35,606 nt of DNA from Hyphomicrobiales bacterium (GTDB lineage Bacteria > Pseudomonadota > Alphaproteobacteria > Rhizobiales > Methyloligellaceae): the NCBI GenBank assembly GCA_021775575.1, contig JAJFHO010000273.1:1-35606 (forward strand), read 5' to 3'. A program made the translations under genes and the position numbers. The notes under the pieces were generated by a model. The model did no database searches, was not told where the DNA came from, and was given only the letters and a program-made list of their open reading frames with translations. Shown here piece by piece: positions 33,013-35,606 of this stretch. The first letter of the stretch is position 1. Every line of letters begins with the position of its first letter.

Positions 33013-33039
33013 ATTTAATTGGCTGCTGGGGAGATTGAG

Positions 33040-34122
33040 GTGGAGTCGAAGAGGTTGGCCGGCATATGGGTGCGCAAGCGCGAGGCCGGCGATGGTCCCC
33101 CTGCCCCTGTGGCCTGCACGGAGTCAGTGCCGCGTGAAGCGTATGGTCCGCGTATCCGGACAGCAGGCGGGGTGGCCGCTCGTTCCAGCCTGATCGGGCG
33201 TCTGCGCGGAAAAATCCGCGCAATCGAACAGGCCCCTGTGTCCCTTGCAGCCCCCCCTGTGGTTGACACGGCGCGCGCGCTGCGCCGCCCCGCCTGTAAC
33301 GCTTCCACCCGCGGCACGGACACGCCTTCTTCCTGGACTTTCGGGGTGGAAGAGATTGACTGCGCCCTGCCCGGCGGCGGTCTCGATCCGGCCGGACTGC
33401 ACGAGGTGCGTGCACGCACCTATGGCGACAGCGGGGCAACGCTCGGTTTTGCTCTGGCGCTGCTGGCCCGGCGGCAACGGACGAGACCGGAACCGGGCTC
33501 AATTCTCTGGGTCTTCACGGAGAGGGATGTGCGCGAATTCGGCACGCCCTACGGGCCGGGCCTTGCCCATTTCGGGATCGATCCGAACAGGCTGCTGATG
33601 GTCCGGGTCCGGCGTGAGGGCGATCTTGCCTGGGCGCTGGAAGAGGGCATCAAGTCCCGCGCACTCGCCGCCACTTTCGGACAGGGAGACGCCCTGTCCG
33701 CAAAACTGCTCCGGCGGCTGGCTTTAGCTGCACGCGCCTGCCGCACGCCCTGTCTTTTTGTTTCAAGCTTCCGTGCCGCCGGCTTCGGCCCGGCGCTGAC
33801 CCGCTGGCGTGTCGCGGCGGCGCCAAGCGCACCCCACCCTTTCGATCGATCCGCACCCGGACCCCCGCGCTGGGCAGTCACGCTGGAGCGCTGCCGGCAC
33901 GGGCCAAGCGGGCGAAGCTGGGTATTGGAGTGGCAAGAGGCGAGGAGGGCTGAAAGCCCGACCGGGAAGGAAAACCAAGAGGCGAGGAGGGCAGAACGCC
34001 CGACCGGGAAACAAATGGAGTCCGTGTATGACGCGTATCGTTTCCGTCTGGCTGACCCACTGGCCGATCGAGCGGCTGAAATGGGCGGCGGCGCGGGGGC
34101 GGCGGCAACCGCCGCCGGATGA
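33040..34122 (+). CDS. imuA: ImuA-like SOS translesion-synthesis accessory protein, with in-frame repeat insertion
   Basis: A RecA-fold-like protein of about 360 residues that works with ImuB and DnaE2 in error-prone repair. Family segments are FGVEEIDCALPGGGLDPAGLHEV, ILWVFTERDVREFG and LYG-like YGPGLAHFGIDPNRLL. The C-terminal WAVTLERCRHGPSGRSWVLEW and FRLADPLADR are normally nearly continuous, but here they are separated by two 14-residue repeats. No ATG fits the start. The GTG at 33040 has GGGGAG 6 nt upstream; TTG at 33019 and TTG at 33055 are alternatives. The N-terminal 50 residues before LIGRLRGKIRAIEQ are longer than usual (the family has about 230-270 residues in all). The end overlaps imuB by 95 nt. 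A LexA box lies just upstream. Confidence 0.85.
   Translation: MESKRLAGIWVRKREAGDGPPAPVACTESVPREAYGPRIRTAGGVAARSSLIGRLRGKIRAIEQAPVSLAAPPVVDTARALRRPACNASTRGTDTPSSWTFGVEEIDCALPGGGLDPAGLHEVRARTYGDSGATLGFALALLARRQRTRPEPGSILWVFTERDVREFGTPYGPGLAHFGIDPNRLLMVRVRREGDLAWALEEGIKSRALAATFGQGDALSAKLLRRLALAARACRTPCLFVSSFRAAGFGPALTRWRVAAAPSAPHPFDRSAPGPPRWAVTLERCRHGPSGRSWVLEWQEARRAESPTGKENQEARRAERPTGKQMESVYDAYRFRLADPLADRAAEMGGGAGAAATAAG
33934..34017 (+). repeat. Two 42-bp tandem repeats inserted in frame in imuA
   Basis: Copies at 33934-33975 and 33976-34017 share CAAGAGGCGAGGAGGGC, then CCCGACCGGGAA, and differ at a few bases. Each contains a small hairpin (GGGCT-GAA-AGCCC in copy 1; GGGC-AGAAC-GCCC in copy 2). 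The length of 42 bp keeps the frame and encodes QEARRAESPTGKEN and QEARRAERPTGKQM. They sit within a conserved C-terminal part of ImuA, which suggests insertion of a small palindromic element followed by duplication. Confidence 0.75.
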
Positions 34123-35606
34123 GGCTCCTTTCGCACTTGCCGGCAGCGGACCGCGGGGCTTGAGCGTTACCGCGGCGAATGAGCCTGCACGCAAGGAAGG
34201 CATTTACCCCGGATTGGGTCTGGCGGACGCCCGGGCGCGGGTGCCGCATCTCCTTTCCGCACCTGCCGAGCCGGAAAGAGACGCGCGCGCGCTTGTCGCG
34301 CTCGCCCGCTGGTGCGAGCGCTATGCACCCTCCTTCAACATCGACGGGACGGACGGGCTATGGATCGATATAAAAGGCGCGGCACACCTTCTCGGCGGCG
34401 AACAGGTTTTGCTGGATGATCTCTGGAGCCGTCTCGCCCGTTCCGGATTCACCGCCCGCCTGGGCCTGGCCGATACGCTTGGGGCGGCCTGGGCTCTGGC
34501 GCGATATGGGCCTGACCGGCTGGCGGCCGTTCGGCCTTGCCTCGCTCCGCAAGGCCTCGAGCAGCGAAGCGGTAGGCCAAACCAAACCGGATTCGAAGAG
34601 CTCCTCTCGGCACTTGGCCCCTTGCCCGTAGAAGGTCTGCGGCTCGAGGCTGACGCGGTCACGCTGCTGAAGCGGCTGGGGCTGAAGCATATCGGACAAC
34701 TTGGCTGCCTGCCGCGCGCCAGCCTGAAGCGGCGCTTTCCCTCCAAAAAGGCTGCGCAGGCCGTCCTGACCCGGCTCGACCAGGCGCTGGGGACAATCCG
34801 CGAGCCGCTCACACCGCTCACTCCACCGCCTTACCATATGGCCCGCCTCGCCTTTGCTGAACCGCTGATCTCGAATGAAGGCTTCGAGGCCGCGCTCGGA
34901 GAACTGACCCGCAATCTGTGCGTGCGGCTTGTCCGCAGCCAGACCGGCGCCCGGGTTATCAACCTTACCGCCTATCGCACCGATGCGAGTCGCGCGAGCA
35001 TCCGTACCGGCTTTGCCACGCCCTGCCGGGCGGCGGAGCATATGGTGCGATTGCTGCGGAGAAAAATAGAAGAAATCGACGCAGGCGACGGCATTGATGT
35101 GATGACCCTCGCCGCCATCGCGGTGGAACATCTTCCGCCCGCGCAGACGGCCCTTGCTGAAAGGGACCACAAGGTTCCCGTCGGCGCTCTGATTGACAGG
35201 CTCACCAACCGGCTGTCGGCGTCTTGCGTCTATCACGCCGTTACCCGTGCGAGCCACATACCCGAGCGCGCCGAGATTTACCGGGCGGCGATCCGTTCGG
35301 ATTTTGTTGACGGCAATCTCACACCCCTCTTGAAACCGCCGCGTCCACCGCTCCTGCTGGAGCACCCCGAACCGATCGATGTCCTCGCCGAGATTCCCGA
35401 AGGACCGCCCGTCCGCTTCACCTGGCGGCGCGTGACCCACCGCATCCGGCGCTGGCAGGGACCCGAAAGGATCGCGCCGGAGTGGTGGCGGGTGAGTCCC
35501 TGTATCGGCGGAAACTCCACCTCCCCCCTTGAGGGGGAAGTCGGCAGACCCGGTTCCTTCACCCCCCTCCCCAACCCTCCCCCGCAAGGGGGGAGGGAGA
35601 AAACAA
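34028..35606 (+). CDS. imuB: ImuB, Y-family polymerase-like protein (runs off the right edge)
   Basis: At least 526 residues of the Y-family-related protein that links ImuA, the DnaE2 polymerase and the sliding clamp during mutagenic repair. The N-terminus MTRIVSVWLTHWPIERLKWA, the segment TAANEPARKEGIYPGLGLAD and DGTDGLWIDIKGAAHLLGGE are typical. The acidic residues used for catalysis by true Y-family polymerases are not conserved in ImuB, and I do not see them here. The C-terminal marker RWQGPERIAPEWWR is present near residues 476-489. The frame then enters a GC-rich palindromic element and stays open to the window edge, instead of continuing as the usual RTRDYYRVE-like ending. The ATG lies inside imuA, and the two genes overlap by 95 nt in different frames. 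dnaE2 would be expected next, outside the window. Confidence 0.9.
   Translation, partial: MTRIVSVWLTHWPIERLKWAAARGRRQPPPDEAPFALAGSGPRGLSVTAANEPARKEGIYPGLGLADARARVPHLLSAPAEPERDARALVALARWCERYAPSFNIDGTDGLWIDIKGAAHLLGGEQVLLDDLWSRLARSGFTARLGLADTLGAAWALARYGPDRLAAVRPCLAPQGLEQRSGRPNQTGFEELLSALGPLPVEGLRLEADAVTLLKRLGLKHIGQLGCLPRASLKRRFPSKKAAQAVLTRLDQALGTIREPLTPLTPPPYHMARLAFAEPLISNEGFEAALGELTRNLCVRLVRSQTGARVINLTAYRTDASRASIRTGFATPCRAAEHMVRLLRRKIEEIDAGDGIDVMTLAAIAVEHLPPAQTALAERDHKVPVGALIDRLTNRLSASCVYHAVTRASHIPERAEIYRAAIRSDFVDGNLTPLLKPPRPPLLLEHPEPIDVLAEIPEGPPVRFTWRRVTHRIRRWQGPERIAPEWWRVSPCIGGNSTSPLEGEVGRPGSFTPLPNPPPQGGREKT
34528..34585 (+). repeat. Possible palindromic insert within imuB
   Basis: GGCCTTGC and GCAAGGCC form an 8-bp perfect inverted repeat around CTCGCTCC, followed by CGAGCAGCGAAGCGGTAGGCC, which can pair partly with the first arm. 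It encodes about 20 residues (CLAPQGLEQRSGRPNQTGFE) between AAVRP and LLSALGPLPVEGLRL, where I recall ImuB proteins having only a short linker. In-frame insertion is inferred from that recollection. Confidence 0.45.
35517..35606 (+). repeat. Palindromic repeat element within the 3' part of imuB
   Basis: Two hairpins lie side by side: CCCCC-TTGA-GGGGG (35524-35537) and CCCTCCCCC-GCAA-GGGGGGAGGG (35575-35597). The sequence type (peptide PLPNPPPQGGREK in this frame) is the kind of dispersed palindromic element often met between genes in alphaproteobacteria. Here it falls inside the imuB reading frame directly after the conserved GPERIAPEWWR segment. Whether the gene resumes afterwards cannot be seen. 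Confidence 0.7.

Follow-up and report, generated by a model that had tools for sequence, protein, structure and literature searches.

The block at positions 33934-34017 of the window (the whole stretch of DNA analysed, 35,606 nucleotides) very probably represents two head-to-tail units of a short palindromic element of Alphaproteobacteria, one that is non-autonomous, dispersed in genomes, and tolerated within genes. We refer to this element family as F1 and to the genome that supplied the window as the host. F1 has dispersed copies with conserved arms and a variable yet paired stem; the in-gene copies are mostly in sense orientation and in one frame, and the corresponding sites of relatives are empty.

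The two copies (33934-33975 and 33976-34017, both on the + strand) lie near the C-terminus of imuA (33019-34122, +), listed among the open reading frames with a TTG start and 367 aa, and are translated as QEARRAESPTGKEN and QEARRAERPTGKQM, respectively. They share 36 of 42 bases, versus 25 of 42 for the runner-up 42-bp tandem match in the rest of the window; Tandem Repeats Finder was silent on the pair, even at a score of 30. Each copy has the layout CAAGAGGCGAGGAG-stem-loop-stem-CGACCGGGAA-tail. The hairpin of copy 1 (33947-33959, +), supported by covariation in the family, has a 5-bp stem (GGGCT/AGCCC) and the loop GAA. That of copy 2 (33989-34001, +) has a 4-bp stem (GGGC/GCCC) and a 5-nt loop, the innermost pair being lost and replaced by an A-C mismatch. 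An earlier note on this DNA had described tandem 42-bp hairpin repeats that differ at a few positions and preserve the frame. All of this is borne out, including the frame, which is uninterrupted across both copies (33019-34122).

The imuA product scored 53.8 bits against the NCBIfam model NF033429 (ImuA), under the curated cut-off of 150, and had no Pfam match. ImuA homologues were identified in 42 of 61 genomes, the host's own counted. We aligned the window with 29 other fetched loci, one of which (L163) stops short of the insertion region. Close relatives read W-SYDTH-RFRL or alike and do not have the block; the distance from W to FRL is 36 residues in the window and 6 in one relative (G026, L164), a difference of about 30 residues. 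The earlier note held that VLEW normally runs straight into FRLADPLADR. Relatives do lack the block, but about six residues intervene. Similarly, the 84-bp pair it delimited is real, but the extra block measured against relatives is slightly longer, about 90 bp. The 28 residues of the insert were sought in the ImuA of relatives and were absent, and the insertion reading stands. Judged by alignment, the relatives' genes are empty sites for the element.

The start codon of imuB (34028-35606, +), a gene for a Y-family polymerase-like protein, begins 10 bp past copy 2. The top NCBIfam match of its product is DNA polymerase IV (32.4 bits, below cut-off). Because a second contig (C150) starts with what reads, from its sequence, as the remainder of imuB and also bears dnaE2, the host locus looks like an imuA-imuB-dnaE2 mutasome cassette. 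F1 is present in dnaE2 as well: host DnaE2 has 13 extra residues at the F1 site, where many of the 29 aligned relatives have K-E (e.g., GCCAAGGAGGTGGGC). This copy is flanked on each side by AAAGAGGCG, and the relatives have Shine-Dalgarno (SD)-like sequence there. A second, unrelated type of palindromic repeat, the CCCTCCCCCGCAAGGGGGGAGGG type, occurs in frame in imuB (35517-35606, listed without strand), where the contig terminates, and in dnaE2 as LTPLSIPPPQGGREN. On C150 (L011) its positions are 1-40 and about 930-970, and the dnaE2 segment that spans it matches many places in another genome (G006).

A search of the host genome for further copies, proposed by the earlier note, was productive. 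The strict F1 pattern returned 16 copies, the window pair included, and 0 in the reversed control. A covariance model built on 58 copies returned at least 24 at E<2e-3, a count obtained from 150 of 5453 first-look candidates. The arms are conserved, (C)AAGAGGCGAGGAG...CGACNGGGA, around a variable but complementary stem. Among 297 genomes of the host's order, 40 had covariance-model matches; the per-genome counts are lower bounds from the best 21 candidates scored, and the host reached 21. A pattern scan of named genomes gave at least 118 stretches, of which 78 were scored with the model after 40 spurious-looking loci had been omitted. Loci with matches above 24 bits are titled Alphaproteobacteria or subgroups of it, except for four titled only Bacterium, Proteobacteria, or Pseudomonadota. 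The taxa at this level include Robiginitomaculum, Hellea, Bauldia, Methyloligella, Aestuariivirgaceae, Nitratireductor, Thalassospira, and Tokpelaia, among others. Planctomycetota and Vicinamibacteria loci gave two weaker matches. Verrucomicrobial and other pattern matches were rejected as unrelated, as they mostly have no AA ahead of the core and no stem.

F1 was also identified in the isolates Bauldia litoralis ATCC 35022 and Thalassospira profundimaris WP0211 and on Mesorhizobium plasmids, in one case with an annotated CDS spanning the element. Phage records yielded no F1 match. A scan of viral contigs yielded 23 stretches with 26 matches, 23 of which have a stem of at least 4 bp; several of these stretches are apparent duplicates, and one contig agrees in length and element with the Tokpelaia contig of L086. 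Given copies in phage-type genes and the viral contig matches, phages may carry F1 between lineages. Two 81-nt versions of F1 (G000:C89:5804-5884 and G000:C76:12302-12382; L206 and L214) are similar to each other and have the loop swapped for a longer sequence.

The structural evidence is comparative rather than based on the folding of single copies. Folded alone, the two window copies are ordinary relative to shuffled sequences (z of -0.66 and -1.42), and the folds of five copies are mildly stable (z of -0.66 to -2.61). Among distinct pattern matches not selected on pairing, a stem of at least 3 bp was present in 84 of 89 with AA ahead and in 7 of 56 others. In an alignment of 58 copies, whose rows were picked for pairing (and thus are 100% paired by construction) and whose arms were fixed largely by the search pattern, both sides change in four of five stem pairs, with 67 double-change cells versus 20.0 when shuffled and a covariation of 0.654 versus 0.157. 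Since the alignment rows were chosen in this way, the existence of the stem rests on the unselected comparison (84 of 89). The stem is about 4-6 bp with a loop of 3, in an alignment limited to cores of 11, and the first pair is G-C in 58 of 58 copies. GGAG occurs at the stem foot in 58 of 58, although the collecting pattern already prescribed most of these positions and rarer variants could be missed. The other end of F1 is TCC, and an A-rich tail follows GGGA.

We identified 25 in-gene loci with homology support, drawn from pattern or model matches and a crude gene caller and hence not a random sample. F1 is in sense orientation in 23 and antisense in 2 (p 2e-5 versus one-half). Of the 23 sense copies, 20 are in frame 0, in which the 5' arm is read CAA GAG GCG and the peptide is QEARSxxxxTG (p 2e-7 versus one-third). 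The excess shrinks (p 0.017 and 0.004, respectively) when the baseline is the strand and codon phase that AAGAG naturally shows in host genes; there, 37 of 63 sense occurrences are in the matching phase, element copies counted too. The AAGAG codon phase partly explains the frame bias. Frame 0 copies are in ImuA, DnaE2, UvrB (three species), UvrA (two), ThiC (two, the second assigned only through likeness to the first), IleRS, PurB, a HlyC-domain protein (N-terminal to the domain), a HyuB-like protein (caprolactamase models), a phage terminase, a TipJ tail protein, GcvPB, a PAS histidine kinase, GlyQ, a methyltransferase, and a plasmid strawberry-notch helicase. The three frame 1 copies are in ParB, MiaB, and DUF5131 proteins. 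Both antisense copies are in transposase genes, IS66 and ISNCY (L154 and L070), which are perhaps weakly constrained.

Relative to PDB chains, there is a gap at or around the element in IleRS, PurB, GlyQ, and UvrA. F1 is C-terminal, past the matched profile, in UvrB, ThiC, and the methyltransferase, and the GcvPB copies precede the best-matched stretch; most other in-gene copies are internal. In one UvrA (L088), the peptide PPLPLRERESRAEGEAGVRG beside the F1 copy looks like another repeat, so two repeat families may be stacked there. The crude gene caller reported 40 in-gene copies in total (26 sense in frame 0, 5 sense in frame 1, and 9 antisense). Four antisense calls (L049, L116, L118, and L208) were rejected as gene-caller errors, the ORFs being 753-1197 aa with 0 Pfam matches each, and L208 has a gyrase B-like ORF in the sense direction; with these four counted as real, sense copies would be 23 of 29. 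The tally also omits L133:+ and L229, both in frame 0 with 0 families matched, and L113, a frame 1 case whose element precedes the domain. We found no general and clean 3' target-site duplication. AAGAG occurs within 15 nt 3' of 13 of 79 terminal copies, versus 1 of 79 in each later window, a count that left out the 22 of 101 terminal copies with AGGCG following.

F1 also forms arrays. All 59 pairs up to 150 bp apart are head-to-tail, with 0 inverted, and the unit-to-unit spacing is mainly 39-47 bp. It is divisible by three for 7 of 8 pairs in coding arrays, versus 20 of 51 in the other arrays, a few of which are coding or unclear. The ThiC array has 1 copy in the host versus 2 in G001, and arrays at the Bauldia HyuB-like site differ from each other (L322, L323, and L071). 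These ThiC and Bauldia sites are common to several genomes, so the insertions are old, while the arrays are still changing; no recent polymorphic F1 insertion was seen. Decayed in-frame units are present in the Mesorhizobium plasmid strawberry-notch helicase gene (L350), and a like region of another plasmid with a different number of units (L351) has no CDS listed.

Other copies lie ahead of start codons. For the 145 copies with 100 bp downstream, an ATG occurs 7-8 nt past GGGA in 19, versus about 4.2 expected from positions 30-94, the 7-8 nt window having been picked after the histogram was seen; for 4-11 nt, the values are 28 and 16.9. In 14 copies an ATG follows GGGA immediately, apparently within the GGGAATGTA-type tail. 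In the host, four leader copies precede thiC and three precede a gene on C45, and leader copies also lie ahead of a ychF-like gene (C73) and a gyrase B-like gene (C108). Among 109 intergenic copies with a gene called on the 3' side by the crude caller, the nearest such gene shares the strand of F1 in 73. The ychF-like leader, recognised by eye, has F1 both in the host (L207) and in a genome of another family (G038, L228), at 7 and 9 nt, respectively, from the ATG. Most leader genes listed look mutually different.

These leader copies raise the possibility, which we consider unlikely, that F1 is primarily a functional RNA leader hairpin (a ribosome standby or translation element) and that in-gene copies are by-products. 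The start codon peak, sense orientation, purine-rich arms, stem covariation, and the ychF-like leader shared across families are consistent with this, but F1 is distributed patchily (in 40 of 297 genomes), dispersal is needed to account for its presence in essential-enzyme and phage genes, the window has 0 Rfam matches at the gathering threshold, and the leader genes are mostly dissimilar. For a dispersed element, the reading that we prefer, many copies place GGGA at SD distance from a start codon, and F1 at those sites probably acts, or was tolerated, as a leader hairpin.

A sister family, F2 (CAAGNAG-stem-loop-stem-CGGTAGGGCA), was identified in 10 of 17 genomes of genus g3, which belongs to the host's family, at 45 places, some of them tandem; the reversed control gave 1 match. 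The foot of its stem is GTAG or GCAG. F2 is part of the ImuA reading frame in six loci of relatives and of the DnaE2 frame in G014 and G020; in G020 it also lies immediately 5' of the dnaE2 start. The ImuA hairpins (L173-L176, L180, and L181) are mostly tandem, encode the peptide AQxxQxxVGQ, and lie about 10 residues before the host's site. Within the mutasome cassette are 9 of 45 F2 places, versus about 0.09 expected; as tandem and inherited copies inflate this number, we reckon that there are at least 3 separate sites. Two families have thus struck the cassette, F1 (host ImuA and DnaE2) and F2 (g3). This echoes the bias of intragenic REPs toward repair genes noted, and left unexplained in the text consulted, by Di Nocera et al. 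(2013, PMC3733652).

Two further alternatives concern REPs. The first, which we regard as doubtful, is that F1 is a REP-type element moved by a RAYT (TnpA-REP, Y1/HUH), with GGAG replacing the GTAG guide. In the text of PMC3733652, GTAG REPs carry an unpaired GTAG (GYAG, GYRG, GTRG, GTMG, or GTGG) at one end, and the dependence of REP cleavage on GTAG varies among the systems covered in the part of PMC8266576 used here. F1 resembles GTAG REPs in hairpin size and in the purine tag at the stem foot, where F2 of g3 has GTAG or GCAG, and the host has one Y1_Tnp match. However, the F1 tag is GGAG rather than GTAG in all 58 aligned copies (most bases being fixed by the pattern), long conserved arms are present on both sides, and inverted pairs are absent, in contrast to the mainly HH or TT dimers that the same text gives for REPs (PMC3733652). 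RAYT mobilisation was also set aside as a candidate because Y1_Tnp presence does not track F1, no RAYT association being found. Y1_Tnp was identified in 47 genomes out of 297; among the 40 that bear F1 it occurs in 9, versus 6.3 expected (p 0.16, both 297-genome draws being assumed the same). The host's one match has no F1 copy beside it, and none was obtained in G039, which is rich in copies, or in five g3 genomes (G002, G007, G010, G014, and G018).

The second alternative, improbable in our view, is that F1 is a divergent REP of the CGTC superfamily read on the other strand. As given in the text of PMC3733652, CGTC REPs have a CGTC (or TGTC or CCTC) tag by the stem and CCA at the other end, a stem of 8-9 bp whose first two pairs are AT, a loop of 4-5, and dimers that are mainly HH, with HT negligible. 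The reverse strand of F1 has NGTC before the stem; CGTC (1) and TGTC (25) together account for 26 of 58 copies, but GGTC is commonest (30), and the remaining 2 have AGTC. A mainly alphaproteobacterial distribution, intragenic copies, many of them in repair genes, and the lack of a dedicated or linked transposase are shared by both (PMC3733652, as far as its text goes). F1 differs in its stem of 4-6 bp, which opens with G-C, in TCC rather than CCA at the other end, and in exclusively head-to-tail pairs.

That the insert is an adaptive ImuA linker modulating the mutasome is very unlikely. F1 and F2 did enter ImuA and DnaE2 in different genera, above chance (inherited and tandem copies counted), but the peptide is generic and is the same in unrelated proteins, ImuA is variable at this segment, and many relatives do without an insert. 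An assembly or MAG artefact is scarcely credible, for although the window comes from a 281-contig assembly, F1 is present in the Bauldia and Thalassospira isolates and on the Mesorhizobium plasmids.

Returning to a dispersed, tolerated element, we suggest that imuA received a single copy, at a segment tolerant of insertion, and that tandem duplication followed. The ImuA insertion is a putative passenger, expected to be near-neutral. F1 may be kept because its frame gives a hydrophilic linker (E-A-R-S/R-x-x-x-x-T-G) and a number of bases that is a multiple of three. Its dispersal, together with arms that are conserved and a stem that varies while staying paired, suggests that the arms and hairpin could be recognised by a putative trans-acting factor. 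Drift of the stem with pairing kept would fit structural recognition or, alternatively, template-switch correction of both arms. Mobility, also proposed in the earlier note, we infer from dispersal; neither a transposition event nor an enzyme was seen. Points contrary to this main reading are the lack of a linked transposase, the age of the shared insertions with no recent polymorphic one seen, the three off-frame loci, and the two antisense loci. A more specific version, which we offer tentatively, is that F1 inserts with a single orientation at SD-like purine tracts (AAGAGG), giving a leader hairpin before starts or a frame-locked linker (K/Q-E-A phase) in genes, with repair and mutasome genes as recurrent sites in separate lineages and a mover that is not a RAYT.

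Palindromic DNA within proteins is best known from Rickettsia. What marks an RPE, an in-frame palindrome in several unrelated genes, is what we found for F1 (23 sense and 2 antisense loci). In the text of PMC3733652, RPE-1, RPE-4, and RPE-6 of Rickettsia are palindromes placed in frame in protein genes and tolerated there, as is F1, which occurs in a different taxon and is likened to RPEs by behaviour, not sequence. The likeness drawn in the earlier note thus holds, as F1 behaves like an RPE or an intragenic REP. The idea of a mobile palindrome within coding sequence outside Rickettsiales is upheld as to dispersal and in-frame presence in many unrelated genes, but elements of this kind were already known there. 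Intragenic GTAG and CGTC REPs, including copies in DnaE2 and uvr genes, are described from several species, and RPE-6 and RPE-4 are assigned to CGTC families (PMC3733652, in the text consulted). The novelty appears to lie in F1 and its behaviour, not in in-gene palindromes outside Rickettsiales. No description of F1 was found in the literature, where PMC3733652 alone dealt directly with intragenic REPs; of 51 papers containing the raw DNA strings, the 20 considered look unrelated. The families of PMC3733652 were compared through its text and not its consensus figures, and F1 could be one of them.

Overall, one defined family enters proteins, essential enzymes included, in Alphaproteobacteria other than Rickettsia, with nearly strict orientation and frame. 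Orthologous arrays unequal in copy number or sequence (ThiC, Bauldia HyuB-like, and Mesorhizobium strawberry notch) provide material for studying peptide expansion and contraction. Repeated insertions in ImuA, DnaE2, UvrA, and UvrB strengthen the bias that Di Nocera et al. noted (PMC3733652, as its text presents it). Like MITEs (e.g., those of Coxiella, for which the part of PMC5896051 used here states implications for proteins), F1 is a non-autonomous repeat, but at about 40 bp it differs from the 70-300 bp with terminal inverted repeats given for MITEs in the text of PMC3733652. F1 falls outside the GTAG REP definition as tested, by tag, RAYT association, and dimer orientation. It also departs from CGTC REPs in stem and dimer features, and, with an ambiguous tag, may be related to them distantly.
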